DNA from: Haloprofundus halobius
Lineage (GTDB): Archaea; Halobacteriota; Halobacteria; Halobacteriales; Haloferacaceae
Assembly (NCBI RefSeq): GCF_020097835.1
Contig: NZ_CP083668.1
Location: forward strand, 62,001 to 126,000
Reading direction: 5' to 3'
Length of the DNA: 64,000 nt
Shown: positions 2-51,159 of the stretch, piece by piece
Layout of the letters: every line of letters begins with the position of its first letter
Position numbering within the stretch: position 1 is the first letter of the stretch
Position numbers and translations under genes: made by a program
The notes under the pieces: generated by a model
Told to the model about the DNA's origin: nothing
Database searches by the model: none
Seen by the model: only the letters and a program-made list of their open reading frames with translations

Positions 2-505
2 GACCCGGAGCGAGACGATCCGCGTGAAGAACTGACGCAGGAGCAGTTGGCGGCGGTGAACACGCAGGCGATGCGATTGAGTGAGAAACTTGATGGTTGG
101 TCGCGAGCGGCGATTGGTCGGCGGCTGGGTGAAGTTGTAGCCGGTGGAACAGACATGATGAGCGCAGTCGTCGGGGTATTCGAGGAGTTACAGACGGCGC
201 CAGGGCAAGTAGTTCCCATTGGAAAGATTGAGGATGTCAATCGCAAGGAGGTCAGCATCGAAGGACGCGTTGAGACACTGTGGGAGCCCTCGCATCCGAG
301 TATCAGTCAGGTAGGTCTCATTGCCGACGACAGTGGACAAACTCGAGTGACGGTTTGGAAGGCGTCGGATGCACCGCTGATGGATGAAGGCGAGCAGGTG
401 CGCATCGATGGTGCTGCGCGAAACTGGTACGAAGGCCGTGTCTCACTGGCCGTGACCGGGTGGTCGAGTCTCACCTTCCCCGAGCGCGGTCGGTGGTGGG
501 AATAG
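2..505 (+). CDS. OB-fold ssDNA-binding protein (RPA-like), 5' end outside window
   Basis: The frame is open from position 2, so the true start lies upstream; the TTG at 47 is only an internal start-like codon. The C-terminal ~85 residues form one OB-fold of the replication factor A type: a first strand pair around 'VSIEGRVETLW', a 'TRVTVWKASD' strand and a closing 'EGRVSLAV' strand. An N-terminal ~70-residue helical part precedes it. Such proteins bind single-stranded DNA and are common on haloarchaeal plasmids. Role is inferred from the fold; which RPA subtype cannot be said from this fragment. Confidence 0.7.
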   Translation, partial: DPERDDPREELTQEQLAAVNTQAMRLSEKLDGWSRAAIGRRLGEVVAGGTDMMSAVVGVFEELQTAPGQVVPIGKIEDVNRKEVSIEGRVETLWEPSHPSISQVGLIADDSGQTRVTVWKASDAPLMDEGEQVRIDGAARNWYEGRVSLAVTGWSSLTFPERGRWWE

Positions 506-582
506 CCGGTCGGTGCGGCCTTCTTTTTTGCTAGGTGCCCGCTCGCCCGCTTCCCGCCACCCCACCCAACCTCCACGTTCCG

Positions 583-600
583 GGCGGCTCACGAGCCGCC
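583..600. terminator. GC hairpin downstream of the OB-fold gene
   Basis: GGCGGCTC, two bases, then GAGCCGCC: a perfect 8-bp stem about 80 bases after the stop codon. A T-run (TTCTTTTTTG) sits nearer the stop at about 520-530. Either could end transcription of the OB-fold gene; the hairpin itself has no downstream T-run. Confidence 0.35.
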
Positions 601-660
601 GGGCTTTCGCTATCGTTTGGTGATGAGTTCGCTCCGTGTGGACGGTCTTGGATTGATATC

Positions 661-713
661 GGTTGGTGATAGGTTTCTGCGGGCGTGCTGAATACAGAGC
701 GCGAGTCGGCTAC
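661..713 (+). repeat. Cassette repeat R1 (right half)
   Basis: Carries the conserved right end TGCTGAATACAGAGCGCG followed by AGTCGG, preceded by a 'GGTGATAGGTTTCTGCGGGCG' type of middle also seen in R7, R16, R20 and R22. It opens the first cassette array. The left inverted end is missing. Confidence 0.75.
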
Positions 714-2504: not shown

Positions 2505-2666
2505 ATGGATTCGACAACCACTTCGACACCGCGTCCTCATCCTGATCCTGACCCAGCTGCGCAGTTTATCGGTGGTTTAATACGGACTGTTCAGGACGCG
2601 CTTCCATTCGTCCTCTTAGGGTTGGTACTTCTCGTTCTCGTTTGGTACTTCCTCAGAACCTCGTAG
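2505..2666 (+). CDS. 53-aa single-pass membrane protein, cassette between R3 and R4
   Basis: ATG at 2505, stop TAG at 2664-2666. A Thr/Pro-rich head (MDSTTTSTPRPHPDPDP) is followed by a short amphipathic part and one strong transmembrane helix (about residues 34-49) ending WYFLRTS. An almost identical copy lies on the minus strand at 13574-13735, together with its upstream region and left repeat arm. Conservation at protein level between two copies argues that this short frame is really translated. Function unknown. Confidence 0.8.
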   Translation: MDSTTTSTPRPHPDPDPAAQFIGGLIRTVQDALPFVLLGLVLLVLVWYFLRTS

Positions 2667-2902: not shown

Positions 2903-4027
2903 CTACTCCGGAGGATGAGGTGACATTGGCTGATCACGAATTTTATTTTGAACTATATCCCCCTTATTGAATACCTCTTTAAATTCCGTTATATGGCTTA
3001 AATCAAAGTCAACAGTGGCTAGGTGAATTGTCTCACTTTTGCCACTAATATCTTCGTATGTCAAGGTAACCCATATTCGAATCAATTCGTGTTCTTTATC
3101 AACATTTGTTAGTGCCGTTTGGAATTTATTTTTCTCGTAAATATCATCTTCACTTACATTTGGAAAATCTGGATTAAAAGTACTCACATAGTCATCAGCG
3201 AAAAATTTGGTGCTATCATTCTTGCTGGGCGCTATTCTTGTTTGACCGTCTATATCTGTTATTGGAATCTTAGGAAAGTACTCTGGTGATAGTTTTGGCA
3301 TCGATTCATCTTCTTCAACCCACTCTAAAGGTTGCATGTGCATCATCACGCTCATATTTTCAACTGCACTATTACCTAAGTTGAAAATCTCAAAATATAT
3401 TCTATTGTCATTTAGAACACCCCAGTTGTCTATTACTATCCAAGGAGCTTGCCCCGCCTCCGTCCAATTCGCTTGCGCTTCCATGATATTAACTTGCGCT
3501 TCCATGAGACGGGTTTGCTTAGTTTGAATGTCTGATTGATTAGAAAGAATTGAGCTCTGTCGAGAGTATAAATAAATAAGTGAAGCGGTTAAAACCACAG
3601 AAAAAACGCTTTCCGCACTGGACACCCATGGAGAGAGCCAAGAAATAACGAGTGAAATGAATTCTATTACGAGCGGAAAGGCTGAGTACCCAATGATAGC
3701 GATCCCAATACTGATCAACAATCTTTTCGCTATCTTCGAAGGATTTGATTGACGAGTGATGATTGGTCTCTTTTTATCATAGAAATAAATCAGGACGGCC
3801 GTTAAGGTGAATCGAAAAACGCTCACCCCAATAGAAATCCAAGGACGGACCCATGAAACAACGAATGAAATGAACCCGGTTACCAGGGGGTCGGCCAAGT
3901 ATCCTACAATAGCGATTCCAATACCGATTGACAATCTTTTTGCTACATTTGATTTTTCAATACTATCGAACCTATTCACGGATATGCGATTTATATTCTG
4001 TATGAGGTTAATAAAGTATTGAAACAT
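2903..4027 (-). CDS. Membrane protein with tandemly duplicated TM unit, cassette between R4 and R5
   Basis: 374 residues. Two clearly homologous ~68-residue units lie in tandem: about 29-97 (from 'AKRLSIGIGIAIVGY') and about 98-165 (from 'AKRLLISIGIAIIGY'), each with two membrane helices and a 'PW' after the first. A short coiled part with repeated 'MEAQ' (about 178-192) leads to a soluble C-terminal domain of ~180 residues. Codon and base use is visibly AT-richer than the plasmid genes, which fits transfer. No family recognised. Confidence 0.8.
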   Translation of the reverse strand: MFQYFINLIQNINRISVNRFDSIEKSNVAKRLSIGIGIAIVGYLADPLVTGFISFVVSWVRPWISIGVSVFRFTLTAVLIYFYDKKRPIITRQSNPSKIAKRLLISIGIAIIGYSAFPLVIEFISLVISWLSPWVSSAESVFSVVLTASLIYLYSRQSSILSNQSDIQTKQTRLMEAQVNIMEAQANWTEAGQAPWIVIDNWGVLNDNRIYFEIFNLGNSAVENMSVMMHMQPLEWVEEDESMPKLSPEYFPKIPITDIDGQTRIAPSKNDSTKFFADDYVSTFNPDFPNVSEDDIYEKNKFQTALTNVDKEHELIRIWVTLTYEDISGKSETIHLATVDFDLSHITEFKEVFNKGDIVQNKIRDQPMSPHPPE

Positions 4028-4186
4028 GACTATAAGTAGTCAAGAGGGTTGCTACACGTCTAAATTCAAGTAACTCTGAATGATATATGCAATACTCAAC
4101 AATTCGATGTTTGTCGATTGACGTAGCAATAACATCATTACATCGCAGAATGAGTAAAAAGAGTAACATACGCCTGCTGCATGCAA

Positions 4187-4269
4187 CCTCTATATCTTGC
4201 ATTCCGTTACTGACAATGGCTGAAAAGTTCGTTCACCGGCTGCTGAATACAGAGCGCGAGTCAATCACG
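4187..4269 (+). repeat. Cassette repeat R5 (full, type A)
   Basis: ACCTCTATATCTTGCA, then TTCCGTTACTGACAATGGC, then GTTCACCGGCTGCTGAATA with CAGAGCGCGAGTC. All core blocks present with a few substitutions. A CTGCTGCATGCA piece just before it looks like an extra, fused right-end fragment. Confidence 0.85.
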
Positions 4270-4306: not shown

Positions 4307-5131
4307 TTATTTCCTGCCTCCATTCCCTCGCCGAACAAGATAGTAGATGGCGTACATTGGGTAGAATGGCGAGAAGGGGAAGATAAGGTGACTGAGATAC
4401 GCAACAAAGAACTGAAGTGATGGGTTCGGATTCCACTCATTGGCGCTGCGACACAGGTAGCATGCGTCCATATAGACTGCAATCGGAAACAACGGTGAAA
4501 TCGCCACCAATGCTACAAACAGAAGGTTCCAGTCACCCGGCATGAAAAGAGGAACGAGTAGGTACGAGAGGGCGCAAACAACGACTCCAGGGATGAGTAG
4601 CCACCAGTAACGACTCGGCGCACTACTTTGAACATGTTTGTGTCGATAACCCAGATACCATACCGCACCCATTGGCGCTGTCACACTTAGCAGCACTGTT
4701 GGGGTGACTGGAGATATCAGAACCTGATTTGCGTACATAGTCATAACTGGGTGCAGTGCCGAAACTAAGGGTCCTCGAATCACTTCAAGAAGTGTCCCAC
4801 CAGCGATTGTCAAAAGGAAAGATCCAACGGCTAATCGGACGGGATGTGGATTCCAATTCAGATCACGCGATTTGAGAGTAGATGCATCAGCGTACACCAA
4901 TCCAGGGACAACAAATGCACTAATCCAGGTTGCACCACCTGCGAGGAACAACCCGATTACCGTTACTGCAAGGCCACTTTGAGTAGTGGGTAAACGAATG
5001 AATTGTGTTATCGCAGCACCAATTCCGCCAGCAGTAGTTGCTAGGATGAGTATCCACTTCAAGAGCCGTGCAGACTTCTCGTTTGCCTTCTCTTTAGATG
5101 GATGTGTTCTGTTTACCACTGAGTTCGACAT
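4307..5131 (-). CDS. Seven-helix membrane protein, cassette between R5 and R6
   Basis: 274 residues, about seven hydrophobic segments. Two internal motifs mirror each other: 'YADASTLKSRDLNWNPHP' (about 80-97) and 'YMDACYLCRSANEWNPNP' (about 217-234), so the protein looks like a duplicated unit with D...W-N-P-x-P before each hydrophobic hairpin. That motif occurs in haloarchaeal membrane proteins of unknown role. Sole gene of its cassette, ending about 38 bases inside the R5 boundary. Confidence 0.85.
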   Translation of the reverse strand: MSNSVVNRTHPSKEKANEKSARLLKWILILATTAGGIGAAITQFIRLPTTQSGLAVTVIGLFLAGGATWISAFVVPGLVYADASTLKSRDLNWNPHPVRLAVGSFLLTIAGGTLLEVIRGPLVSALHPVMTMYANQVLISPVTPTVLLSVTAPMGAVWYLGYRHKHVQSSAPSRYWWLLIPGVVVCALSYLLVPLFMPGDWNLLFVALVAISPLFPIAVYMDACYLCRSANEWNPNPSLQFFVAYLSHLIFPFSPFYPMYAIYYLVRRGNGGRK

Positions 5132-5238
5132 ATCGGATACTAACGAATAGTAGACATTGTTATAGACTGACTACTCAACCGAATCTGGATAAAACCGCAA
5201 AATACCCCCATCCAGAATCGAAGACCGTTTGCGGACTA

Positions 5239-5324
5239 TACCCTCTGTATCTCGCACTCCGTTATTGCCAGCCGTTGAGGAGTTCGCTCATCGACTGCTG
5301 AATACAGTGCGCGAGTCGGTTACG
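5239..5324 (+). repeat. Cassette repeat R6 (full, type A)
   Basis: CCCTCTGTATCTCGCAC, CTCCGTTATTGCCAGCCG, TTGAGGAGTTCGCTCATCG, TGCTGAATACAGTGCGCG, AGTCGGTTACG. Very close to R21, which borders the second copy of the adjoining cassette at 51 kb. Confidence 0.9.
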
Positions 5325-5376
5325 CGGTTTACCCAACTACGATGCCACGTACCGAGAATATCTACCTCTCACCAGA

Positions 5377-5799
5377 TTACCTGCGTCCAATCTGGCGGCG
5401 AAGCAACTCCCCGCCCACGTACCCGATACAGCCGAATAGCCACCCCCACGAGACGATTAGGAAATCGAGGTCAAAGAGAAAACCCAATCGCTCAGAGACC
5501 GTGAACCCTTGGTATAAGAAGAACACTTCGACAAGTCCAGTGGAGAAAAACACGAAACAGGAACTGGCAAGACCCAGAATGAATCCGCGACGGAGGTACG
5601 CGATTGCACCGGACAATATTATTGCAATTAGTGTCGCGACGAGCGGGGGGCTCGGGCCTCCCCACGAGACGAACGAAGCAGAGCCGAAGATGCCTGTTAG
5701 ATAACCGATTGCGACGACGAATGAGACGGCGAGAGACCCGACTATTGATGTCCTCAAGTCCACTTCGTTACTTCCAAAAAGAACTTCGGCCCAGTACAT
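5377..5799 (-). CDS. Four-helix membrane protein, cassette between R6 and R7 (copy 1)
   Basis: 140 residues with four hydrophobic helices (about 20-40, 53-70, 75-97, 110-132). The stretch 'SASFVSWGGPSPPLVATLIA' is identical in the 143-residue protein encoded at 51160-51591; the rest differs by scattered substitutions. Flanking DNA on both sides, including the repeats, is also homologous, so the whole cassette exists twice in this window. Function unknown. Confidence 0.85.
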   Translation of the reverse strand: MYWAEVLFGSNEVDLRTSIVGSLAVSFVVAIGYLTGIFGSASFVSWGGPSPPLVATLIAIILSGAIAYLRRGFILGLASSCFVFFSTGLVEVFFLYQGFTVSERLGFLFDLDFLIVSWGWLFGCIGYVGGELLRRQIGRR

Positions 5800-5895
5800 C
5801 CTAAGCCACGACTTCGCAACCTGTATTTGTAGGTTTTCTGTCTAAGACTCGGCGTACTACGAATACCCACCGAGTGGGTGTTTCGTCGTTGATTG

Positions 5896-5992
5896 CCTGC
5901 TGAACTCACCCTCTGAGTGTTGCACACCACTTCTGACAGCATTCGGTGAGGTTTCTGCGGTCGTGATGAATAGAGGGCGCGTATCGGTCACT
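5896..5992 (+). repeat. Cassette repeat R7 (full, type C middle)
   Basis: CTGCTGAACTCACCCTCTG opens it, followed by AGTGTTGCACACCACTTCTG, a GTGAGGTTTCTGCGG middle and right end TGATGAATAGAGGGCGCG, TATCGGTCAC. The left edge looks like a right-end fragment (CTGCTGAAC) fused to a left end, as in R11. Confidence 0.8.
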
Positions 5993-6087: not shown

Positions 6088-6702
6088 TTATCCGCAACTT
6101 CCGCCACCAGTGATAGACCCAGAGTTCTCTGAAAGTTCTACTTGTACTTCTCGAAGCGTCGATTGAGATTCTGAGGATGACTTTGATGGCGGACATTGGG
6201 TTGTTGAGACTGCGACGACCGGCGTTCCTGATTTGGTACTACTCACGACAGTCATTACTGTCACATTTGTGCGTTCAACCGGCACTGGAAGTGTAACAGT
6301 AGAGTCTGCAACTAAGTATGCCGACCACCGAGCAACAGGTGTGCTATTCGTCGGCTGTATCTCAGTGACGTTATGTGCCCCACCATAAATATACTCGAAT
6401 GTCGAGTCAATCGGTCTCGTGAGTACCGTTCCATTGCTGAGTGTGAAGTTCACCTCTGAAACCGGCCCATTGATGACCTGAACACTCACCAGATAATCTG
6501 TTGACCGATTATTTACGATAGATATTTCTTGAGAATTGGTCGTGGATTGAGTGGGCGTCTTCTGTGGGACATCAAGTACTTGAGTAGTTGTTTCTCCTGG
6601 CGTTGAGACGTCGTTCTCGCTGGGTACAGTATTGCACCCAGCTGTGATGACGAGCAATACTATCAAGATGAGTGAGTGATGTGTGGAGGTTCGCGAGTTC
6701 AT
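6088..6702 (-). CDS. Lipoprotein, cassette between R7 and R8
   Basis: 204 residues. Sec-type signal with lipobox ITAGC at about residues 19-23 ('LLVITAGCNTVPS'). A Thr/Pro/Gln linker (about 28-57) is followed by a beta-rich domain that starts 'QEISIVNNRSTDYLVSVQV', which resembles Ig-like or carbohydrate-binding folds, and a Ser-rich tail ending GGGSCG. Sole gene of its unit. No specific function can be given. Confidence 0.85.
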   Translation of the reverse strand: MNSRTSTHHSLILIVLLVITAGCNTVPSENDVSTPGETTTQVLDVPQKTPTQSTTNSQEISIVNNRSTDYLVSVQVINGPVSEVNFTLSNGTVLTRPIDSTFEYIYGGAHNVTEIQPTNSTPVARWSAYLVADSTVTLPVPVERTNVTVMTVVSSTKSGTPVVAVSTTQCPPSKSSSESQSTLREVQVELSENSGSITGGGSCG

Positions 6703-6736
6703 TTCTAAAATGAAAATGTAGATATTGATAAATGTA

Positions 6737-6819
6737 CCCTCTGTAACTCGCAGCCCGTTACTGACAGCAGTTGAGATGTTCGCTCATCGACTGCTGAATA
6801 CACAGCGCGTATCGGTCAG
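6737..6819 (+). repeat. Cassette repeat R8 (full, type A)
   Basis: CCCTCTGTAACTCGCAG, CCCGTTACTGACAGCAG, TTGAGATGTTCGCTCATCG, TGCTGAATACACAGCGCG, TATCGGTCAG. All blocks present. Confidence 0.88.
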
Positions 6820-6898
6820 CGGTTCCGCGCTCGACGTGACCGAACTGAATCGTTCAGTACAGAGAAGGTATTTAGCGTATCCCCTGAACCTTCGAGAT

Positions 6899-7105
6899 AT
6901 GCCTAATGCGTCCCTTGTCCGTTTTGTCGGTACGGTCTTAGTCGCGCTCATCATTGCGTTTAATCTCGCGGCTATTTTCGGGCCTCCCGATCCGTTCTCA
7001 CAACTTCGTATAGCAGGAATCGCGCTGATAATCGTGGCACCGCTTGCTTACGCTCTCATCTACAGACGAGGATACAAATCTATCTTGAAACAAGTGAATC
7101 GATAA
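6899..7105 (+). CDS. Small two-helix membrane protein, cassette between R8 and R9
   Basis: 68 residues from ATG 6899; an upstream in-frame start would run through repeat R8 and is unlikely. Two hydrophobic helices (about 8-26 and 37-54), a short loop with 'FGPPDPF', and a basic tail YRRGYKSILKQVNR. Sole gene between two repeats. Function unknown. Confidence 0.75.
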   Translation: MPNASLVRFVGTVLVALIIAFNLAAIFGPPDPFSQLRIAGIALIIVAPLAYALIYRRGYKSILKQVNR

Positions 7106-7121
7106 CAAGCACACCTACTTA

Positions 7122-7260
7122 GCGGTTAGTTCAGCACCGGTGAGACGAAATAAACGAGGTCTCCGTGAGAGATGCACTCTCTGTATGCAGCGCGGTGTTT
7201 CTGACAGAACCTCGGTAGCTCGCAGAGGTTCTGCTGAATACAGGGCGCGTATCGGTTATC
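7122..7260 (+). repeat. Cassette repeat R9 (long form, type B)
   Basis: Long left arm (GCGGTTAGTTCAGC, GAGACGAAATAAACGAGG), then CTCTCTGTATGCAGCGC, GTGTTTCTGACAGAACCTCGG, and TGCTGAATACAGGGCGCG, TATCGG. Its left end reads TGTATGCAGC, making the two ends an even better inverted pair than in type A. Confidence 0.88.
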
Positions 7261-7321: not shown

Positions 7322-7522
7322 ATGAAGAAGTCTCGAATAGAGGGTATGGAGTTGAGCCCCCTCCAAGAAGTGAAAAAGCTCGTTCTTGCGTTTAAACGAT
7401 GGGTTTTAGTAATTATTCTTCTCATTCTTGCAACTCTTTTTCTACCTCTCCCAGAATCTCCATTTCTCCTTGGGGGGGCACTCGCCATCATCTTATGGCT
7501 ACTCAAAAGATACCTCTCATAG
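7322..7522 (+). CDS. Small two-helix membrane protein, cassette between R9 and R10
   Basis: 66 residues. A short charged head (MKKSRIEGMELSPLQEVKK) precedes two hydrophobic helices (about 25-42 and 46-62). The internal ATG at 7346 (MELSPLQ) is an alternative start. Sole gene of a 290-bp cassette, one of the smallest in the array. Confidence 0.7.
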   Translation: MKKSRIEGMELSPLQEVKKLVLAFKRWVLVIILLILATLFLPLPESPFLLGGALAIILWLLKRYLS

Positions 7523-7547
7523 AGTGGTATCTTCGCACACCTACTGA

Positions 7548-7675
7548 GCGGTTAGTTCAGCGTCGGAGAGATGGAATAAACGAGGCCACTGTGAGAGATA
7601 CATCCTCTGTATCTCGCACGGTGTTTCTGACTGAACCTTGGTAGTTCGCAGAGATGCTGCTGAATACAAGGCGCT
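7548..7675 (+). repeat. Cassette repeat R10 (long form, type B)
   Basis: Shares with R9 a stretch reaching further left (CACACCTACTGAGCGGTTAG), then GAGATGGAATAAACGAGG, CATCCTCTGTATCTCGCAC, GGTGTTTCTGACTGAACC, and TGCTGAATACAAGGCGC. R9 and R10 flank a tiny cassette and are nearly direct repeats of each other. Confidence 0.88.
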
Positions 7676-7697
7676 TTTCTTGCACGCGACATGTGGG

Positions 7698-8042
7698 TCA
7701 GCTTGTCGCTTTTCGGCTGTGTTTTCGACTTATCTTGTGCCGGAGGAGGGCGAACAACAGAATGAGTATGCTTACTACCTCAGCCCCGATAGCCGGGAGA
7801 ACTCGCCAGAGGGGAGTGGGTAGTCCAAACCCGGCTCTCGGATACATGACTGCGTGAAAGTAGCCGAAGCGAAGGAGCGTCATGAACAAGAGCGCGGTTA
7901 CGCCGACTAACGCGAACGCTGTCACGAGCGTCTGAAGCGATTTATTGAGAGTGTTGTTACGAGTCCACACCAGCCAAATTGACGAGCCTGTAATTGCAAT
8001 TCCGGCGAGTATGAAGTCTGGTGTTGCAGATGGAGGAACCAT
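7698..8042 (-). CDS. Three-helix membrane protein, cassette between R10 and R11
   Basis: 114 residues, three hydrophobic helices (about 10-26, 36-59, 83-104) and a very basic tail (RHKISRKHSRKATS). The stop lies about 20 bases from R10. No family recognised; consistent with the other cassettes it is predicted to be in the cytoplasmic membrane. Confidence 0.75.
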   Translation of the reverse strand: MVPPSATPDFILAGIAITGSSIWLVWTRNNTLNKSLQTLVTAFALVGVTALLFMTLLRFGYFHAVMYPRAGFGLPTPLWRVLPAIGAEVVSILILLFALLRHKISRKHSRKATS

Positions 8043-8106: not shown

Positions 8107-8200
8107 GTGCTGAACTCACCCTCTGTATCTTGCAGTCCGTTACTGACAGTGGTTGAGGAGGTCGCTTATCGAGTGCTGAATACAGCGCGCAAATGCGTCA
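8107..8200 (+). repeat. Cassette repeat R11 (full, type A)
   Basis: CGTGCTGAACTCACCCTCTG, TATCTTGCAGTCCGTTACTG, ACAGTGGTTGAGGAGG, AGTGCTGAATACAGCGCGC, AAATGCGTCA. The next cassette gene (minus strand) ends exactly in this right end: its stop codon is the TCA at 8198-8200. Confidence 0.88.
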
Positions 8201-8368
8201 TTCAGATTGATACTGCCGATACTCTTTGAAAAGCACGAGAGCGCCTAAGAGACTACCAAAGAGAAGAACAAACGAGACTCCTGAAAATGGCTCCTGCTTA
8301 GCAGCTAAGCCAAAAGGTATCCCCGTTAGGAGGGCCGCAACGATCAACCTCGTCTTCTCGGAGACCAT
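8198..8368 (-). CDS. Small two-helix membrane protein, last cassette of array 1
   Basis: 56 residues from ATG 8368; a longer frame from 8446 adds a basic, unlikely N-terminus reaching into R12. Two hydrophobic helices (about 6-20 and 30-46) and tail FKEYRQYQSE. The stop codon overlaps the end of repeat R11. Confidence 0.6.
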   Translation of the reverse strand: MVSEKTRLIVAALLTGIPFGLAAKQEPFSGVSFVLLFGSLLGALVLFKEYRQYQSE

Positions 8369-8439
8369 ATTCTGGACATGTCTCTGGCTCTGAAGAATAT
8401 GCTTCTTTCGTCGCCTCATCCGAGCAAAATGCGTTACTG

Positions 8440-8490
8440 AGTTCACCCTCTATATTCAGCACGCACTTCTTGTCAGAACCTAAGAATTTA
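8440..8490 (+). repeat. Cassette repeat R12 (left part)
   Basis: TTCACCCTCTATATTCAGCAC, CACTTCTTGTCAGAACCTAAG. Right end missing. It closes the first array; 20 bases further on begins the oligo-T/hairpin leader of the TFB gene. Confidence 0.7.
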
Positions 8491-8508
8491 GACGAGACCG
8501 CACGGCTG

Positions 8509-8535
8509 TTTTTCTGCCCCTGAAGGGTGAGGGGC
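8509..8535 (+). promoter_or_regulatory. Oligo-T plus hairpin leader of the TFB gene
   Basis: TTTTT, then stem GCCCC, loop TGAAGGGTGA, stem GGGGC, 43 bases before the ATG at 8578. The CCC of the 5' strand can instead pair with GGG of the loop, so two structures compete. One of twelve such leaders in this window. Confidence 0.75.
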
Positions 8536-8577
8536 GCGTGGAGACGTGCGATTCGTCTGGTGTCCCTCGTGAGTACC

Positions 8578-9534
8578 ATGGCAACGAGAAACATCTACGA
8601 AACGGTCTTCGATGAAGACGTCCAGCATGAATCCAGTTCGAACAACTGTCCCGAATGCAACGGACACGTGGCGACTAACGCAGTGGAAACAGTTTGTGAA
8701 GACTGTGGTCTCGTCATCGCAGACCAGCAGATTGACCACGGTCCTGAATGGCGCTCGTTCGAAGACGACGACAGCAACCACAAACGGACAGGGTCCACAC
8801 TCACGGCAGCCCGTCACGACCGAGGCTTATCGACCGAGATTGGTCGCAGGACCGATGGGAAGGGAAACACGCTCTCTGGGTCGAAACGATGTCAGCTTGC
8901 CCGACTGCGACGTGAACAGACGCGGGGACGATTCCAGTCGAAAGCCGAGCGGAACCTCGCACACGGCTTGGGTGAGGTTCGACGAGTCGCAAGCGCTTTC
9001 GGGCTTGCTGGTTCGGTTCGCGACCAAGCGTGTCAGCTCTTCCGGAGTGCCCAACGTGAGGACCTCTTGCTTGGTCGATCAATCGAAGCGATCGCCGCCG
9101 CCAGCGTCTATGGGGTCTGTCGGTGTCACGGACGGCCAATCGCGCGCGATGACCTCGTCGACGTTGCTCGAGTCGACCACTCGGGCGTAACAAACGCGTA
9201 CAAAACGTTGAACAGAGAACTGGGACTCCCGACAAAGCCCGTCGCCCCACAATCACTGATTCCGAAGCTCGCTTCGGAACTCGATGTCGACAAGCGGGTT
9301 CGTCGTCGAGCGCGGGCGCTTGCCGAGCGTGCGCACGAGACGTCCATTGCGAACGGCTGTCTGCCGTCCGGAGTTGCTGCAGCCTGTCTCTATCTCGCCA
9401 GTCGTGAACACGGAGAGTCGCTGACACAGACACAAGTTGCTGAAGCCGCTGGAACGACGCCGACAACACTTCGAGCGCGACGTGCAGAACTTACCGAGCT
9501 GGTCGACGGGGAGGTCCAAGTCGCATCAACGTAG
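8578..9534 (+). CDS. tfb: Transcription initiation factor TFIIB homologue (orphan TFB)
   Basis: 318 residues from ATG 8578. The N-terminal zinc ribbon has C-P-E-C ... C-E-D-C (about 21-42), followed by the B-finger region with 'GPEWRSFEDDD', then two cyclin-type repeats (about 120-205 and 215-305), the second containing 'VAAACLYLASREHGESLTQ' and ending in a helix-turn-helix. Binds TBP and the BRE to recruit RNA polymerase. Haloarchaea carry several TFBs; plasmid copies are often divergent. It lies between the cassette array and the TA genes and has the shared hairpin leader, so its own expression probably follows that regulon. Confidence 0.93.
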   Translation: MATRNIYETVFDEDVQHESSSNNCPECNGHVATNAVETVCEDCGLVIADQQIDHGPEWRSFEDDDSNHKRTGSTLTAARHDRGLSTEIGRRTDGKGNTLSGSKRCQLARLRREQTRGRFQSKAERNLAHGLGEVRRVASAFGLAGSVRDQACQLFRSAQREDLLLGRSIEAIAAASVYGVCRCHGRPIARDDLVDVARVDHSGVTNAYKTLNRELGLPTKPVAPQSLIPKLASELDVDKRVRRRARALAERAHETSIANGCLPSGVAAACLYLASREHGESLTQTQVAEAAGTTPTTLRARRAELTELVDGEVQVAST

Positions 9535-9566
9535 GGGTTCTTCAGATGCGTCGTTGGAACAGTCGC

Positions 9567-10061
9567 TCACTCTGCATCCGGCCATTCCGAGAGTGATGGT
9601 TGTCCATCCTGCCACCGAATCGCCTCCAAAGCGGTTGGCAACTGCTGAAGTCGTTGATCGAGTGCTGCAAGCGGATGTGCATCGAGAAATGCCGCAGTAT
9701 GCCTGTCAACAGCGGTGTCCTCGTGGTTAAGTTGAATGTGACAAGGCCCCAATTCAGGATGGTCAGCGTCTTGGTGGAACCCGAGCATGAGGTTCCGCGT
9801 TGGTTCGATCCAATTGATTCGGTAGTACTCGTGGTCAACACCGATTGGATACCAGAATCGAATCTCTAGTCGTGCAGTTTCGATGTCGTAGGAATGATTC
9901 AGGAACGTTGCTGTGTCGATATCAGCGATGACAAAGCGTGGACGACGACGAGATGGACGGTAGCGCACATTCTCACAGCCAGCGTGTTTCGATAGCCGAC
10001 TGTGTACTTCTCGAAGCAGGGTACGTTGCGTATAGCGGTCGCGATTCGCAAGGAAGATCAT
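9567..10061 (-). CDS. TumE-like (DUF6516-like) putative toxin
   Basis: 164 residues. A basic N-terminal half ('RYRPSRRRPRFVIADID') precedes 'HEYYRINWIEPTRNLMLGFH' and 'HPELGPCHIQLNHED', the pattern I associate with haloarchaeal TumE-like proteins. It follows the DUF7342 gene with an 18-base gap on the same strand, the usual order DNA-binding protein then TumE-like partner. Expected role: toxin of a type II toxin-antitoxin pair; the family assignment is from memory and the biochemical target is not known. Confidence 0.6.
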   Translation of the reverse strand: MIFLANRDRYTQRTLLREVHSRLSKHAGCENVRYRPSRRRPRFVIADIDTATFLNHSYDIETARLEIRFWYPIGVDHEYYRINWIEPTRNLMLGFHQDADHPELGPCHIQLNHEDTAVDRHTAAFLDAHPLAALDQRLQQLPTALEAIRWQDGQPSLSEWPDAE

Positions 10062-10079
10062 CGTGGTAGAAAAGAGAGG

Positions 10080-10631
10080 TTAGCTCGTAGCGCGGTCTGC
10101 TGCGTCGGTCATCTGTTTGCGAGTGGTTTCAACATCCGAATACAGTTCGAGAGCGTGCTTGATGAGTTGACGGTCTTCTTCGTTCGCACGCCAGAACGCG
10201 ATGATCTCGCGTCGCTCACGAATTTCAGCGCTAGAGACCTCGCCATCTGCAAGCGACTGTTCGAGCTCTTCCCACGTCTCTACGTTGTAGGTGTCTTGCC
10301 ATCCCTCGATTTCTTCAGCAATGGCCGCCAACTCACTCTGGAGTTCCTCGCGGGCGTTCTCCTCGATGAGGGTGCGGATTTCCTCGAAGAGCAACCGGGT
10401 ATAGTCTGGCTGATACAGCGTAGTGTCACCAGCTTCAATGCGGCGTAACCGACCTTGCTCAACGAGCTCATTCAGCTCGTTGGAGGTGGTACTCCATGCC
10501 GCATCTGCTTGGTCGCTAATCCAATTGGTCGAACGTGGCTCACGGAGTGTTTCGGCGACGGATCGAATCCGCTCACGTGCACTCATTGTCTCTGTCCACG
10601 ATGTAACACCTTCCCGTGGAGACTCAGTCAT
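10080..10631 (-). CDS. DUF7342-type winged-helix protein, putative antitoxin
   Basis: 183 residues from ATG 10631; the frame is open further upstream but would run into the divergent gene. A winged-helix part ('RSVAETLREPRSTNWISDQ', about 23-70) is followed by a long helical tail ('EEIRTLIEENAREELQSEL') and ends near 'ALELYSDVETTRKQM'. Same fold arrangement as the protein at 31665-32240. Upstream partner of the TumE-like gene at 9567; likely binds the shared promoter and neutralises the toxin. Confidence 0.7.
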   Translation of the reverse strand: MTESPREGVTSWTETMSARERIRSVAETLREPRSTNWISDQADAAWSTTSNELNELVEQGRLRRIEAGDTTLYQPDYTRLLFEEIRTLIEENAREELQSELAAIAEEIEGWQDTYNVETWEELEQSLADGEVSSAEIRERREIIAFWRANEEDRQLIKHALELYSDVETTRKQMTDAADRATS

Positions 10632-10763
10632 CTTAGTCACCTCTTGTACTAGCGTTCGTGTCTGGTTCTCATATATCTTTGTGTCTTCTCGAATAATCAA
10701 GAGCGAGAAGTCGGAGTCGTCTCGAAGTTGAAGTACCATGTCGGATGAAATCGAGACAAGCCG

Positions 10764-11558
10764 ATGACTGACCACTACGCCGACTACGAAGCACTCCGTC
10801 CGGTGGGTGAAGCTACCCAAACACCTGACCGCGAACTCAATGCTCGATTCGACGCTCAAGATCGAGAAGAGTCTCTCGTAGGTTACCCAGAGGGTCACCA
10901 GCGAGAGACCAACTGTGCCTCTTGTGGGACATCAATTCTTCCCGGCCAGCCGAAGTGCCGGTTCTGTCTCACTCACCATCTCGATTCATCGGACGAGCAG
11001 CGTCGCTCGGACACCGAGCTGTCGCTCCTGCACGTCGTACACCTGTTTGTCGAGTCGTCGACGTACTACGGCGCCGTCGCGAAGGGAGCCGCCGCAGCGA
11101 GACTACTTGCGACAAATGGGTTCAATCCCGCCGTCGACGAATGCCAGCTCATCTACGACTTCGACGAGGAGCCTGCCGCACAGGTGACCGATGCGTGGCC
11201 GACGCTTCCTGCTGCAATACGAGTCGCTTCAGAGCGTGGCGAGGAGGTACTTGAGGTTGCCCGTGAACGGACGATCTGGCGAAGCACAACTTGCTCACCG
11301 AATAAACACTCGACGTACCTCTACGACGAAAGCGGGAGCGCCATTCAGGATGAAGCGCATCTTTCGACACTCCTTGAGAGCGCAGGCGACGACGGCTGGC
11401 TCGTACCAGCGATTGCCCTCCAGCACTCTCCCATGGAGGGGAGTTCTGAGTCTCGAAAGTACCAGGCACCAATGAAGACATCACTACAGTGTTGGGAGTG
11501 TGGCCGAGAGACTGTACATCGGTTTTCGGCGTTTGAGGAGAGTCCCAACGACGCGTAG
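10764..11558 (+). CDS. Zinc-binding plasmid protein, C-terminal ribbon cut by an in-frame TAG
   Basis: 264 residues to the TAG at 11556. Two zinc sites are visible: C-A-S-C ... C-R-F-C (about 52-68) and C-W-E-C (about 243-246). After the TAG the frame continues for 24 codons to a TAA at 11631-11633 and supplies the missing half of the second ribbon (C-T-L-C plus a further Cys). The ancestral protein was thus about 290 residues, and a single base change created the stop. Central part is alpha-helical with no family I can name. Role unknown. Confidence 0.75.
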   Translation: MTDHYADYEALRPVGEATQTPDRELNARFDAQDREESLVGYPEGHQRETNCASCGTSILPGQPKCRFCLTHHLDSSDEQRRSDTELSLLHVVHLFVESSTYYGAVAKGAAAARLLATNGFNPAVDECQLIYDFDEEPAAQVTDAWPTLPAAIRVASERGEEVLEVARERTIWRSTTCSPNKHSTYLYDESGSAIQDEAHLSTLLESAGDDGWLVPAIALQHSPMEGSSESRKYQAPMKTSLQCWECGRETVHRFSAFEESPNDA

Positions 11559-11654
11559 GCTGGACAGCCAATCTGGGAGTGTACTCTGTGTGGAACACCG
11601 TGCTTTGGGCCTGAACCCAGCAAAAGAGAGTAAGCTCACGCAGAGAGATTTATC

Positions 11655-11674
11655 CACCCCTGAAGGGTGCGGGG
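11655..11674 (+). promoter_or_regulatory. Hairpin leader of the 36-aa/46-aa gene pair
   Basis: CACCC, CTGAA, GGGTG forms one hairpin; CCCC (11657-11660) can alternatively pair with GGGG (11671-11674). The T-run is weaker here (ATTTAT). Start codon 30 bases downstream. Confidence 0.65.
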
Positions 11675-11704
11675 CACTCAAGGACGGCCGTCCCGCGGTT
11701 AGCA

Positions 11705-12819: not shown

Positions 12820-12961
12820 TTCAATTGGTAGCAAGGCGGATTCCCGCGCACGGTGGTGCGGGGTTGTTGACGAACCTGAAAAGGAGTAGTGTGGCTACAT
12901 TCAAAAAATCAGTGAGACTCATCGGAATCAGAACGACTCAACGCTGAACGCTCCACAGAGG

Positions 12962-12989
12962 TTTTTCTGCCCCCTGAAGGGTGCGGGGC
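12962..12989 (+). promoter_or_regulatory. Oligo-T plus hairpin leader of the SWIM protein
   Basis: TTTTT, stem GCCCC, loop CTGAAGGGTGC, stem GGGGC. Directly overlapping it, GGCAC (12986-12990) can pair with GTGCC (13000-13004) to form a second hairpin that would break the first stem. ATG at 13014. Confidence 0.75.
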
Positions 12990-13013
12990 ACTCAAGAGGT
13001 GCCTCGTAGACCT

Positions 13014-13418
13014 ATGACGAATGCATTTGCACACCTCGACACAACCCGGAGAGTCGTCAAACGAGCCCAGTATGAGGCATTTGAGTTCGAATGCTGCGAC
13101 GGCGGTATTCGCGTCAGAAACTGCAGTCACGCCGAGCCAGCGGATCATGAGTATCACGTTACTGTCGACGACGGAATCCCAGTCGCCTGTGAGTGTCCAG
13201 CCGACGCAAAGTACTCCTCAGCATGTAAACACCGGGTGGCGGTTGCGATTCGACCCCTACTCCTTGATGCCGCTGCAACGCAGGCGGTCGCCGATGGCGG
13301 AACCGTCGTGAGCGACGACGAGACTGCGGAATCAGATGGGTGTGACTGCGCAGATCTCGGCGACGGGTTTCCCTGCTGGGAGTGTTATCGAACCGGGAAG
13401 CGAACGCTGCCGGAGTGA
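13014..13418 (+). CDS. SWIM zinc-finger protein
   Basis: 134 residues from ATG 13014. SWIM motif C-E-C-P-A-D ... C-K-H (about 61-73: 'CECPADAKYSSACKHRVAVA'). A C-terminal cluster C-D-C ... C-W-E-C (about 110-126) may bind a second metal. SWIM domains bind DNA or proteins and are frequent in plasmid and recombination-linked genes. A truncated paralogue lies at 56276-56602. Expressed behind the shared hairpin leader. Confidence 0.85.
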   Translation: MTNAFAHLDTTRRVVKRAQYEAFEFECCDGGIRVRNCSHAEPADHEYHVTVDDGIPVACECPADAKYSSACKHRVAVAIRPLLLDAAATQAVADGGTVVSDDETAESDGCDCADLGDGFPCWECYRTGKRTLPE

Positions 13419-13483
13419 CATCGACCCACGGCTCAAGAAGCGAGCAGCTAGCGGTCCATTTCTCCAAATAATGACAGAAATTG

Positions 13484-13569
13484 TGTGCTGCATACAGAGG
13501 ATGCATCTCTCAGAGAAATCTCGCTTATTCCGTCTCATCGACGCTGGACTAATTGCGATATAGCGCGTA
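13484..13569 (-). repeat. Cassette repeat R13 (inverted, left arm)
   Basis: Reverse complement of the R4 left arm and left end: GTGCTGCATACAGAGGATGC, CTCGCTTATTCCGTCTCA, TGGACTAATTGCGATATAGC. It opens the inverted array next to the second copy of the 53-aa cassette. Confidence 0.85.
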
Positions 13570-13573
13570 CGAA

Positions 13574-13735
13574 CTATGAGGTTCTGAGGAAGTACCAAAC
13601 GAGAACGAGAAGAACCAACCCTAAGAGGACGAATGGAAGTGCGTCCTGAATAATCCGTATTAAACTACCGACAAACTGTGCAGCTGGGTCGGGATCAGGA
13701 TGGGGACGCGGTGTCGAAGTGGTTGTCGAATCCAT
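13574..13735 (-). CDS. 53-aa single-pass membrane protein, inverted copy
   Basis: Minus strand, ATG at 13735, TAG at 13574-13576. It differs from the protein at 2505-2666 by only a handful of residues (for example GSLIRIIQ against GGLIRTVQ). The ~70 bases before the start and the repeat arm after the stop are also conserved, so the duplicated unit is the whole cassette. Confidence 0.8.
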   Translation of the reverse strand: MDSTTTSTPRPHPDPDPAAQFVGSLIRIIQDALPFVLLGLVLLVLVWYFLRTS

Positions 13736-13813
13736 ACGATGACATAGATGATTCGGAGTAAGTACTTTCTCTCTACCGAGCAGTTCGAGTCCCCCAGATG
13801 ATAATTAACCAGT

Positions 13814-13894
13814 AGCCGATACGCGCCCTGTATGCAGCAACACCTCTGCAAACTACCAAGCTTCGGTCAGAAACTCTGTGCGAGATACAAAGGT
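13814..13894 (-). repeat. Cassette repeat R14 (inverted, full, type B)
   Basis: Reads CCGATACGCGCCCTGTATG, CAGCAACACCTCTGC, CTACCAAGCTTCGGTCAG, GTGCGAGATACAAAGG; the reverse complement has all type B blocks. Confidence 0.85.
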
Positions 13895-13958
13895 TGTCTT
13901 CAGTAATAAACTACATGACTGAGAGGTCACGTTCCACGTCACCATCTATCCAAACATC

Positions 13959-14042
13959 ATGAACCGAAAAAAGTCCTCAAATAACTCGGGCCCTTGGCGG
14001 TGTGTCGTATCTTGCTGGCTGTAGTAACGTTGATGCGTTTCA
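13959..14042 (+). pseudogene. Broken lipoprotein signal peptide
   Basis: ATG 13959 starts 'MNRKK', and after two frame shifts the sequence reads 'GVSYLAGCSNVDAF', a perfect lipobox LAGC. Then the frame runs into the convergent lipoprotein gene. It looks like the 5' end of a Tat/Sec lipoprotein gene whose body was lost when the neighbouring gene was placed here. Confidence 0.5.
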
Positions 14043-14846
14043 GTCATCTGCTGTCTGTTCGCTTTGATTTTTGGACCTCTCCACCCACTCAGGCCGACTA
14101 ACTTTCGTTATTCCGAGATCCGTGATTCGCATCCGTTCTGTTACGTGAAGCATCATTCCACCTCGCTCGGTCTCGTATTGTAACTCGTACGACCGAACAA
14201 TCCCGGTATAGTCGATGTGAGCAGTGAAACTGACGTTTTGCAGTTTTTCACCATTGACGGACAGTTGCTGTGTCGAGGCCTCCAGTCGGTGAACTGAGTC
14301 GTCGATCGTTTCCGGTGCTACTGTGGCATTCAGAAGTCTGAAGAGAGTATAAAGGCGTTTTGAGTGCGTACCGTTCTGTACAAGCACTACGCGGTCACTT
14401 TGGCGATAGGTATAATGAACCTCTCCATCGTCCGATTTGCTGTATGTGGCAAGTTCAGAGGTCTTCGGGTCATACCAAATGAAGCTTCGTTTTGGCGAGT
14501 TTGTCACGTTCTTAGGGCCTTTCGACCGTTCTTCAGCGAGTTTTGGCCCACGGTTAACCATCACACGGGTGACGAGGGTCGTGTTCGCGACGACGGTTCC
14601 GTTCTCGGCTCTAAAGACCTGCGTCTGCGTCGATGTACGCGCCTGAGACGACACCGTTTTGCGATGCGTCTGGATGAGTGCCTTCGCGTTGATGACGCCA
14701 TCGCTCGTTAGACCAGGGGCGAGCCAACGTGGATCGCTTGTATGATCCTCACGCGGTTGCCTCTGTGAGAAGTCGTTAAGCAGGCCCCCACACCCCGAGA
14801 GGAGGACTAGTGCGACCACTGCAAGCAAAGCAGCCTTGGAGGGCAT
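14040..14846 (-). CDS. DUF7537-like lipoprotein, cassette between R14 and R15
   Basis: 268 residues. Signal with lipobox LLSGC at about 15-19 ('VALVLLSGCGGLL'). The mature part follows the pattern I know from haloarchaeal DUF7537 lipoproteins: an initial helix 'DGVINAKALIQTHRKTVSSQ', strands with 'TVVANTTLVTRVMV', 'RSFIWYDPKTSELATYSK', and a membrane-distal part near 'IDYTGIVRSYELQYE'. Surface-anchored; function unknown. Confidence 0.8.
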   Translation of the reverse strand: MPSKAALLAVVALVLLSGCGGLLNDFSQRQPREDHTSDPRWLAPGLTSDGVINAKALIQTHRKTVSSQARTSTQTQVFRAENGTVVANTTLVTRVMVNRGPKLAEERSKGPKNVTNSPKRSFIWYDPKTSELATYSKSDDGEVHYTYRQSDRVVLVQNGTHSKRLYTLFRLLNATVAPETIDDSVHRLEASTQQLSVNGEKLQNVSFTAHIDYTGIVRSYELQYETERGGMMLHVTERMRITDLGITKVSRPEWVERSKNQSEQTADD

Positions 14847-15008
14847 AGATGAAACGTTCGGGGGAGGAAATATTAATTTACTGTGACTTCTGATTCTCAG
14901 AGTCTACAGTTCGCTCACTTAGGCTCAATTGGTGGTGAAATTATTTGGGTTGGTCCCCTCATCACTCTCCCCGCTACTATCACCTATGGACTTGCCCGTC
15001 GCTTGTAG

Positions 15009-15090
15009 TAACCGATACGCGCTCTGTATTCAGCAGTCGGTAAACGAAACCTCTCGACTGCTGTCAGTAACGGAGTGCAAGATACAGAGT
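15009..15090 (-). repeat. Cassette repeat R15 (inverted, full, type A)
   Basis: ACCGATACGCGCTCTGTATT, CAGCAGTCGG, CTCTCGACTGCTGTCAGTAA, CGGAGTGCAAGATACAGAG. The inner TACTGACAGCAG block identifies it as type A. Confidence 0.88.
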
Positions 15091-15152
15091 ATCTATCCAT
15101 CGACCGATTCTCGTTCGAAACGGACCGACAAGAAGGCGTGTAAAGGTTTTAG

Positions 15153-15428
15153 TTATTCTCCGTTCCTCCGTTCTCGCTCCTTTTCTAATCTCTCAATTTT
15201 CGGTCTAAGTCGAAACATCACCACGAGAAAGACCGGCAATCCGACTAGCATAGTACCCATATAGGAAACCGCAACAATTTGAGCTAACCTTCCAGGGTCA
15301 TCGTGTTCGGCTTTTCTTGCAGCGGCATATACACCAGCCGCAGACAGTAACGCTGCGGGAAGCGAGAATGCAAACAGCATCCCTAATAAACTATATTGGA
15401 TGCTCTGAGCAAGCGCAAGAAGCGTCAT
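15153..15428 (-). CDS. Small two-helix membrane protein, cassette between R15 and R16
   Basis: 91 residues; hydrophobic helices at about 8-34 and 49-71, followed by a charged tail (RLRPKIERLEKERERRNGE) that should be cytoplasmic and helical. Sole gene of its cassette. Function unknown. Confidence 0.75.
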   Translation of the reverse strand: MTLLALAQSIQYSLLGMLFAFSLPAALLSAAGVYAAARKAEHDDPGRLAQIVAVSYMGTMLVGLPVFLVVMFRLRPKIERLEKERERRNGE

Positions 15429-15511: not shown

Positions 15512-15582
15512 GTGACCGATACGCGCATTGTATGCAGCACGGCTCCTGAAACCTATCACCGATTGAGGATTTCAACAGAACT
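15512..15582 (-). repeat. Cassette repeat R16 (inverted, right half)
   Basis: TGACCGATACGCGCATTGTA, TGCAGCACGG, CTGAAACCTATCACCGATTG. Same type as R1 and R20; followed by GATTTCAACAGA, which resembles the end of an IS5-like element also seen near 27240. Confidence 0.75.
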
Positions 15583-25697: not shown

Positions 25698-25768
25698 CGA
25701 TTCGCACAACCTCTGGAGCATCGATTACAGTCGGCTCCATTGGAATTTTCAGAATCTGATAGAAACGG

Positions 25769-25797
25769 CGTGCTGAATAGAGAGAATGTATTCAGCA
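25769..25797. repeat. Cassette repeat R17 (fused ends)
   Basis: GTGCTGAATA, GAGAGAATG, TATTCAGCA: only the two outer ends facing each other with a few bases between. It marks the left edge of the third cassette group. Confidence 0.65.
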
Positions 25798-25902
25798 AAA
25801 GGGTGTCATTCGTTTCACTCCCTTAGTGGTGGAACAACCGTTAGGTAGGTCTGCGGACTTCATGACCACAAAGATTATTCTAAATGTCACTTATCTCCGA
25901 GT

Positions 25903-26064
25903 ATGCCCACAACGGGGTTCCTTCTCTTCTGGGTGCCAATTGCGTTCGTATTCATCGTCGTTGCTTCGTTCACGGGCACTATACTTGCTCTCCAAGTCTA
26001 CTATGGCAACAGAACTCTGTCTCTCACAGAATTTACGAAGCGATTCAACAACGACAGGAGATAA
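25903..26064 (+). CDS. 53-aa single-pass membrane protein, cassette between R17 and R18
   Basis: ATG 25903, TAA 26062-26064. A transmembrane helix starts almost at the N-terminus (about 5-30, 'FVFIVVASFTGTILAL'), followed by a basic cytoplasmic part 'EFTKRFNNDRR'. Not homologous to the other 53-residue cassette protein apart from size. Short, so moderate confidence. Confidence 0.6.
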   Translation: MPTTGFLLFWVPIAFVFIVVASFTGTILALQVYYGNRTLSLTEFTKRFNNDRR

Positions 26065-26115
26065 TTACATTTTCTACACTGAGCTATTCAGGTAGCATGC
26101 ATCAAGTGCCGAGCC

Positions 26116-26148
26116 AGTGACCGAGACGCGCACTGTATGTAACACCGA
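26116..26148 (-). repeat. Cassette repeat R18 (inverted, right end)
   Basis: GTGACCGAGACGCGCACTGT, ATGTAACACC. Right end only, 15 bases before R19, so two right ends lie in tandem. Confidence 0.7.
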
Positions 26149-26163
26149 GGTCGAAAAAGCTGC

Positions 26164-26247
26164 GTGACCGACTCGCGCACTCTATTCAGCAGCACCTCTA
26201 CGAACTGCCAAGGTTCAATCAGAAACACCATGCGAGATACAGAGGGT
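26164..26247 (-). repeat. Cassette repeat R19 (inverted, full, type B)
   Basis: GTGACCGACTCGCGCACTCT, ATTCAGCAGCACC, TGCCAAGGTTCAATCAGAAA, CATGCGAGATACAGAGGG. All type B blocks present. Confidence 0.88.
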
Positions 26248-26383
26248 GTAATCAGCACGATAACGCCTTTCTATTTAGTGAACTAATTTCTGTCTGTCGA
26301 GTATAGCGCGCTGAAAACGGAGTATCTATCCAGGAACGGGCTGCTCTGTCAAGAGAGCATCTCGTCTCTCATTGGGAATTGAT

Positions 26384-26893
26384 ATGGGGCTTTATTATTT
26401 TGCCAGTGAAATCAGTGGTATGACGCTTGATGTAGAGGTTCCGGAATCACCGGACCTCTCGAACCGAGGGATGCCACGCGAGTTTGAGTGGCAGGAAGAA
26501 ACGCTCGGATCAGAGGACTTCTACCGCGAGGATATCGAAGATCTACTTCAGGAGGGTGCGTGGAAGGAGGGATTCAACGAGTGGACCGAGTACACGAATC
26601 TCGACGAAGAGCAGGTCCAAATCGTCAGCGACCTTGGCCTGTTCCAGGCGTTCGACTTCTACTGGGACCCAACCGAAGATCGTCTTCGCTTCGATGCCCC
26701 GACGATTCCGGACGACTGGCGGGAGCAAGACGCGACCGAATCACTCGATTCGAGTGCGGTTTCGATGATTGATGCCGCGTTAGATGATCTCGGCCGAGCT
26801 ATGCAGGAGGTACTGGAGAACTACCTTGAACGGAACGACGAAGCGTCCGATTATGGTTGGGGTGAGGAGACCTACGGAAAACGCGGAGAGTGA
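26384..26893 (+). CDS. Acidic soluble protein, cassette between R19 and R20
   Basis: 169 residues from ATG 26384 (a TTG four codons earlier is possible). Acidic, aromatic-rich: 'GLYYFASEISGMTLDVEVP', 'WKEGFNEWTEYTNLDEEQ', 'GLFQAFDFYWDPTEDRLRF'. A C-terminal helix 'IDAALDDLGRAMQEVLENYL'. No signal peptide or membrane helix; it is the one cassette gene here that does not look like an envelope protein. Function unknown. Confidence 0.78.
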   Translation: MGLYYFASEISGMTLDVEVPESPDLSNRGMPREFEWQEETLGSEDFYREDIEDLLQEGAWKEGFNEWTEYTNLDEEQVQIVSDLGLFQAFDFYWDPTEDRLRFDAPTIPDDWREQDATESLDSSAVSMIDAALDDLGRAMQEVLENYLERNDEASDYGWGEETYGKRGE

Positions 26894-50988: not shown

Positions 50989-51039
50989 TTAGTGAATGCC
51001 ATCTGTTTAACTGTATGTGTATCTAAGATGACGGCTACA

Positions 51040-51121: not shown

Positions 51122-51159
51122 AGTGGTCTCCTGATTACGATACCCTCTACGAGGCCTAC

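Follow-up and report, generated by a model that had tools for sequence, protein, structure and literature searches.

Why does a small gene of a haloarchaeal plasmid occur twice in opposite orientation, carrying with it part of a repeat, and what is the unit that was copied? This question arises from a window of 64,000 nucleotides (the whole stretch analysed, positions 62001-126000 of contig C3 in the 3.95-Mb genome of Haloprofundus halobius), where a gene for a 53-residue membrane protein was seen in two inverted copies. The gene is one cassette in arrays of single genes that salt-loving archaea appear to swap in and out at fixed two-part DNA sites, much as bacteria do with integrons, but with different sites and a different recombinase.

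The duplicated cassette and the arrays of the window

The duplication that was first noticed is real. By BLASTN, 2450-2748 on the forward strand matches 13790-13492 on the reverse strand at 92.6% over 299 bp (E = 6e-121), and the 53-aa ORFs at 2505-2666 (+) and 13574-13735 (-) differ at 10 nucleotides, with 6 synonymous and 4 nonsynonymous codon changes. Ungapped identity per 10 bp is mostly 8-10 of 10, with one block of 7, from 2450 to 2749 and falls to background outside. At the 3' end, the homology stops not at the outer end of the repeat but inside its left 27-bp site, after CCTCTGTAT (2741-2749). Copy 1 then continues with a full repeat (2729-2821), while copy 2 continues with a terminal half site (13461-13511). 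At the 5' end, strong homology begins near 2441-2450, about 15-25 bp inside the right half site (2383-2426 / 13812-13853), and this breakpoint is not exactly at that site. The right sites also align when a gap is allowed, but this adds nothing, as all right sites resemble one another. The right site before copy 1 has lost its left partner, and the repeat arm beside copy 2 is a terminal left half. No copy of the 53-aa protein was found in other plasmids.

The original prediction held that the gene, its upstream block and the left repeat arm had moved together as a mobile cassette, and named homology running past the repeats into neighbouring cassettes as the outcome that would count against it. 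This outcome was looked for and was not observed: neighbours on both sides are unrelated and the 3' breakpoint falls in the site. The interpretation is thus supported, with the refinement that the moving unit is gene plus site with the exchange inside the site, and that it belongs to genus-wide arrays rather than being one duplicated cassette.

The window holds four arrays of one-gene units separated by a composite site made of a left (L) and a right (R) palindromic site, so that arrays read R-gene-[L-39bp-R-gene]n-L. Array 1 starts at 644-713 (+) with a degenerate terminal-repeat-like stretch followed by the first R site (668-713). Its first cassette gene encodes a 187-aa lipoprotein-like product (793-1356, +) and is followed by an L-R site at 1414-1505 (73 bits with the repeat model). 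The second encodes a 223-aa Tat-type lipoprotein-like product (1715-2386, +), and its L site is missing, as no L hit precedes the R half site at 2383-2426 (22.7 bits, model positions 50-94). Cassette 3 is copy 1 of the duplicated unit (2450-2748, +), comprising a promoter-like block, the gene, a 3' segment and the left arm of L, and is followed by the L-R site at 2729-2821 (87.7 bits). Next come the 374-aa membrane protein gene of cassette 4 (2903-4027, -) and the L-R site at 4175-4268, the 274-aa membrane protein gene of cassette 5 (4307-5131, -) and the L-R site at 5231-5323, the 140-aa gene of cassette 6 (5377-5799, -) and the L-R site at 5898-5991, and the 204-aa lipoprotein-like gene of cassette 7 (6088-6702, -) and the L-R site at 6727-6819. 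They are followed by the DUF7534 membrane protein gene of cassette 8 (6899-7105, +; PF24378, 41 bits on the ORF 6725-7105) and the L-R site at 7167-7259, the 66-aa membrane protein gene of cassette 9 (7322-7522, +) and the L-R site at 7593-7680, and the 114-aa membrane protein gene of cassette 10 (7698-8042, -) and the L-R site at 8108-8201. Cassette 11 is an 82-aa ORF (8198-8446, -), whose real start is probably internal. The array ends in a terminal L site at 8437-8489 next to a TFB gene. All these sites lie on the forward strand.

Array 2 lies on the reverse strand. It starts at 15512-15582 with an R site (15512-15555) and the terminal inverted repeat AGTTCTGTTGAAATCCTCA, followed by a 91-aa membrane protein gene (15153-15428, -), an L-R site (15008-15100), a 268-aa lipoprotein-like gene (14040-14846, -), an L-R site (13812-13903, 79.1 bits) and, in the last position, copy 2 of the duplicated cassette (13492-13790, -), before the terminal L site at 13461-13511. 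Array 3 (25748-27158, -) has a terminal L at 25748-25797, an R at 26117-26146, an L-R at 26164-26257 and a first R at 27088-27132 with a terminal repeat at 27158, with ORFs at 25903-26064 and 26372-26893. Array 4 (51030-51757, +) has an L-R site at 51030-51122, a cassette gene at 51160-51591 (-) and an L at 51691-51757 with a decayed R. This gene is homologous to that of cassette 6, so a second cassette (140/143-aa membrane protein) is present twice in the window, here in the same orientation, with 79% identity over 619 bp including the site (5232-5848 and 51032-51640). In addition, cassettes with different genes share the same segment of about 65 bp just before the L site (2684-2748, 7109-7186, 7535-7612 and 13487-13552), which may be a common 3' or accessory element.

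Besides the arrays, a GC-rich palindromic element, CCCCTGAAGGGTGMGGGGC, recurs next to the array ends (about 8512-8535, 11650-11682 and 12965-12996) and on contig C2 of the same genome. Further internal repeats of 81-93% identity lie outside the arrays (30220-30354/32301-32436, 34980-35299/36005-36327 and 38506-38749/53044-53287). The Rfam search returned only a CRISPR repeat, a CRISPR-DR24 match at 32662-32821 with two exact 30-bp repeats, forming a short CRISPR-like array. PADLOC gave mostly TnpB/Cas12-like hits from two TnpB-type ORFs and a few other matches, with no defence theme.

Sites, distribution and cassette turnover

Thirteen full repeats from the window were aligned and modelled without structure. 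Each holds two palindromic 27-bp sites, L (consensus TGCTGAATACA-CCCTC-TGTATCTTGCA) and R (TGCTGAATACA-GNGCG-CGTATCGGTCA), inverted with respect to each other, whose central bases are conserved (CCTCT at L positions 13-17 and GCGC at R positions 14-17). The gap between L and R is 39 bp in 105 of 109 cases, over several genera, while the spacer sequence varies. Many hits are half repeats, as arrays start with an R half and end with an L half. In 20 loci of the own genome and 20 of relatives, plus the window, the order on one strand is R to L within 3 kb 129 times and L to R within 100 bp 118 times, with about 40 other transitions. The 132 units have a median length of 675 bp, and their main ORF is oriented 68 times with and 64 times against the site polarity. 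Gene content is diverse, including small membrane proteins, lipoproteins, HTH_10/BAT and DUF7344 regulators, methyltransferases and transporters, with 56 Pfam families and two TnpB-like ORFs; no integrase is among the most frequent families.

The repeat model finds 82 matches at E <= 1 in the own genome and matches in 37 of 60 relatives, with 58 in the relative G002 and 56 in G004, which carries the 356,276-bp plasmid of H. salinisoli. In a phylum-wide sample, 34 of 296 genomes are positive at E <= 1e-7, and all of these belong to the window's own order. An exact R pattern hits at least 80 stretches in many Halobacteria genera. In 79 of these loci, of up to 8 kb, there are 200 site calls with the same grammar and none after shuffling, although R is over-represented, because the loci were chosen by an R match.

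The decisive comparison is with Haloprofundus sp. MHR1, whose plasmid pMHR1-2 carries the same locus. Its left flank matches window positions 2-710, ending at the first R site, and its right flank matches 8444-11651 (86% from 8444 on), starting at the terminal L site. Between them the window has 11 cassettes and MHR1 has 6, and no homologous cassette was found apart from the sites and the short adjacent segments that several cassettes share. The second array behaves alike: the flank 12957-13513 is shared, and beyond it the window has copy 2 of the duplicated cassette while MHR1 has another gene. Flank homology (to 13513) and cassette homology (to 13492) overlap only in 22 bp of the L-site core. 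Identity in 150-bp blocks is 0.84, 0.93 and 0.80 outside the sites and 0.53, 0.53 and 0.57 inside, where random pairs give 0.54, with a standard deviation of 0.026 and a maximum of 0.61. Moreover, a paralogous locus on contig C2 shares the flank from 8434 (88%) and shows the same break at this L site, with 0.95 against 0.53. About eight other homologous unit pairs in the genus, in different species or contexts, also end at L position 13-26, and several start at the previous L site. Unit pairs whose repeats are of the same subtype show no visible break, so this clustering rests on the others.

Several arrays also lie between terminal inverted repeats (GGCTCTGTTGAAAYCC), as array starts are preceded by GGCTCTGTTGAAAYCCTCA and array ends followed by its inverse. 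Two have matching flanking duplications of 8-9 bp: locus L030, with one cassette, is flanked by GTTTCAGT on both sides, and locus L022, with three cassettes, by ATTTATTAA. A third, L026, matches at 7 of 8 positions, and others match at 6 of 8 or are decayed. The first cassette of L022 is the L030 cassette (87%), and L022 carries further cassettes beyond its L site, which suggests growth at the end L site. Regarding the source of these repeats, no parent transposon with the same ends was found, but only IS6-type transposases (PF13610), absent from the genome, and TIR-pair elements of the own genome were searched and no other transposase family, which leaves the origin of the platforms undecided. 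One TIR-pair element, on contig C1 (115120-116662), is bounded by the same GGCTCTGTTGAAATCC terminal repeats and carries HTH-type regulator genes without transposase, and no L or R site was called there.

Candidate recombinase and interpretation

No integrase gene was found in the window's arrays. However, of eight PF00589 proteins in the genome, one of 234 aa on contig C2 (locus L004, 1420-2124) sits 45 bp from an R site. Close homologues (72-93%) occur in Haloprofundus, Salinirubellus, Halorubrum, Natrinema, Haloarcula, Halorientalis and others, with a site at 44-70 bp upstream and 31-36 bp downstream (one at 103). Of 14 close copies, 13 have at least one site above 18 bits within 150 bp and 9 have both; two further close copies are fragments and have none, and neither do seven distant homologues (37-46%). 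The site matrix was trained on Haloprofundus and a few relatives, so its hits in Natrinema, Haloarcula and similar genera are largely independent. The gene lies in the L-R interval, which is 39 bp in ordinary arrays, and not in the cassette interval: in seven loci the order is L-int-R on one strand, in locus L232 it is L-int-LR, and in L225 the gene lies with L and L inverted. It is thus the likely enzyme, although its activity is not shown. The protein matches PF00589 over nearly its whole length (47-57 bits, cut-off 27.1). No relative of solved structure was found by sequence, and no copy in viral contigs. The copy of the window's genome has Y in place of the usual H at the HxxR motif, unlike the other intact copies aligned, and may be impaired. 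In addition, the relatives G001, G002 and G003 (the last with a contig of H. marisrubri) have sites but no close copy in the PF00589 search, so trans action, past presence or another enzyme must be assumed there and their arrays are orphan or otherwise served.

The best explanation, held with fair confidence, is that the repeated cassette is one unit of an integron-like gene-cassette system of Halobacteria. In this view, a cassette is one gene plus one composite site, and cassettes are gained, lost and shuffled by strand exchange within L (and, at array starts, R), so that tandem one-gene arrays grow between fixed terminal sites. The 234-aa recombinase would act in trans on integrase-less arrays such as those in the window, and platforms enclosed in terminal repeats with 8-bp target duplications could move too. 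The analysis itself demonstrates the units, the site grammar, the breakpoints in the sites, the cassette turnover at a conserved locus and the linkage of integrase and sites, while circular intermediates, the activity of the enzyme, the direction of insertion and the expression of the genes are inferred. No recombination event or circle was observed, which counts against this explanation, as do the sites without a close integrase copy in G001, G002 and G003, the integrase of the window's genome that may be impaired, and the 5' breakpoint of the cassette pair, which is not exactly at the R site. That these are discrete cassettes exchanged at the sites is held with high confidence, that the 234-aa family is the enzyme is more likely than not, and that arrays also move as transposable platforms is likely.

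ALTERNATIVES. The strongest rival for the enzyme, although unlikely, is the universal Xer-like recombinase L003 of Halobacteria, acting at dif-like sites as in Acinetobacter pdif modules, with the 234-aa integrase only a passenger. The sites are 11-5-11 palindromes close to the 11-6-11 dif format (PMC8371274), and genes lie between inverted sites as in dif modules (PMC6449649). The 353-aa L003 is single-copy in nearly all genomes searched (47 of 47 good ones have it), its best NCBIfam match is archaeal XerA, and G002 is rich in sites without a close integrase. However, the XerA match is below cut-off (113 bits against 220), L003 is not linked to arrays, whereas the 234-aa integrase is tightly linked to the sites, and no chromosomal dif-like site with this motif is shared by the five Haloprofundus genomes, and the only pattern match in G003 is neither L- nor R-like. 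A gene present everywhere cannot be tested by co-occurrence, and recombination by the host Xer was not assayed. Another candidate, a rare XerC-like integrase lying about 1.2 kb from an isolated start-type R site, was rejected as the enzyme because it is found in 6 of 60 relatives and is absent from the site-rich G002 and G004. Besides these, a 429-444-aa PF00589-like protein occurs once in four of the five Haloprofundus genomes, near a contig end in three of them.

It is doubtful that the units are non-autonomous, MITE-like transposons inserted next to each other, with the sites as transposase-binding ends and no site-specific recombination. Inverted ends, isolated single units and the terminal repeats with duplications agree with this reading, and haloarchaea carry many transposase-free elements (PMC3119063). 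However, terminal repeats and duplications lie at array ends and not around each cassette, no matching transposase was found in the genome (IS6-type PF13610 is absent, and other families were not searched), and pure transposition does not explain the conserved centres, which differ in this from target duplications, the fixed gap or the breakpoints inside L. Still less likely is ordinary homologous recombination or gene conversion between dispersed repeats without a dedicated enzyme. Repeats of about 80-90% identity could serve as short homology, haloarchaea are polyploid and recombine readily, and exchange of this kind could mimic part of the pattern, but breakpoints cluster in one 27-bp subsite rather than over the 93-bp repeat, and the fixed spacing and the linked integrase are not explained. 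Segmental duplication with inversion of this one region, suggested by the two inverted copies, is ruled out by the lack of shared neighbours and by unit pairs with the same limits across species.

A broader reading, slightly more probable than not, is that Halobacteria possess their own integron equivalent, evolved independently of bacterial integrons, with duplex composite L-39-R sites, a small catalytic-domain-only tyrosine recombinase as the integrase and arrays enclosed in transposable platforms, shuffling mainly small surface, membrane and regulatory genes between replicons and species. The system would explain where much of the strain-variable small membrane, lipoprotein and regulator gene content of haloarchaeal plasmids comes from, and would give archaea a gene-capture platform unrelated to IntI integrons and invisible to attC-based searches. 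It also points to a specific enzyme and a specific 27-bp site, so that mobility can be tested directly in genetically tractable haloarchaea.

Comparison with known systems

The system works like an integron but fails integron membership, as it has no IntI and no attC fold. As in integrons and CALIN arrays, tandem one-gene cassettes each have a recombination site made of two inverted simple sites, with exchange at one of them; turnover takes place at a fixed locus with breakpoints at the sites; a tyrosine recombinase gene lies beside the first site, usually divergent from the cassettes, although not next to the window's own arrays; and integrase-less arrays are common. However, the linked recombinase has no IntI-type match above cut-off (integrase_gron 15-19 bits, cut-off 265), the consensus lacks the attC R-box core, and single-strand folding is weak and inconsistent, with z-scores from +0.9 to -2.9 and only one of five beyond -2. 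Moreover, the sites are of duplex type and palindromic, and genes lie in both orientations. Integrase-catalysed excision and integration were not measured. Integrons reported in archaea come only from MAGs of nine phyla, in a paper that never mentions Halobacteria (PMC9668308), and a survey of halophile genomes with IntegronFinder, including 47 archaeal ones, reported, as far as seen, only a bacterial (Halorhodospira) array among the genomes (PMC7923331). No description of the present system was found in the open literature searched, which included no preprints and few subscription papers.

The pdif modules of Acinetobacter plasmids likewise have one or a few genes between inverted 11-n-11 palindromic sites, with many modules in one replicon, on plasmids and chromosomes. 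Their 28-bp sites have two 11-bp arms and a 6-bp centre, whereas the sites described here are 27 bp with a 5-bp centre, inverted around the gene as in pdif modules, and on this feature alone the comparison could go either way. The system described here differs in its composite L-39-R sites in long same-orientation arrays, in the dedicated linked recombinase and in the lack of a shared chromosomal dif of this motif.

The PATE, MITE and SMR elements of Haloquadratum walsbyi (PMC3119063) are also abundant transposase-free mobile repeats of haloarchaea, and the terminal repeats at array ends are MITE-like. However, PATEs have no terminal inverted repeats and have IS605-like near-terminal palindromes, whereas the units have inverted L/R ends and the arrays have terminal repeats; MITEs and SMRs are described as too short to code for a transposase and without cargo arrays, and none forms one-gene cassette arrays. 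Finally, mobile insertion cassettes, which are transposase-less elements with passenger genes, also have terminal repeats and target duplications, but here the passenger region is an array that gains and loses genes at internal recombination sites.
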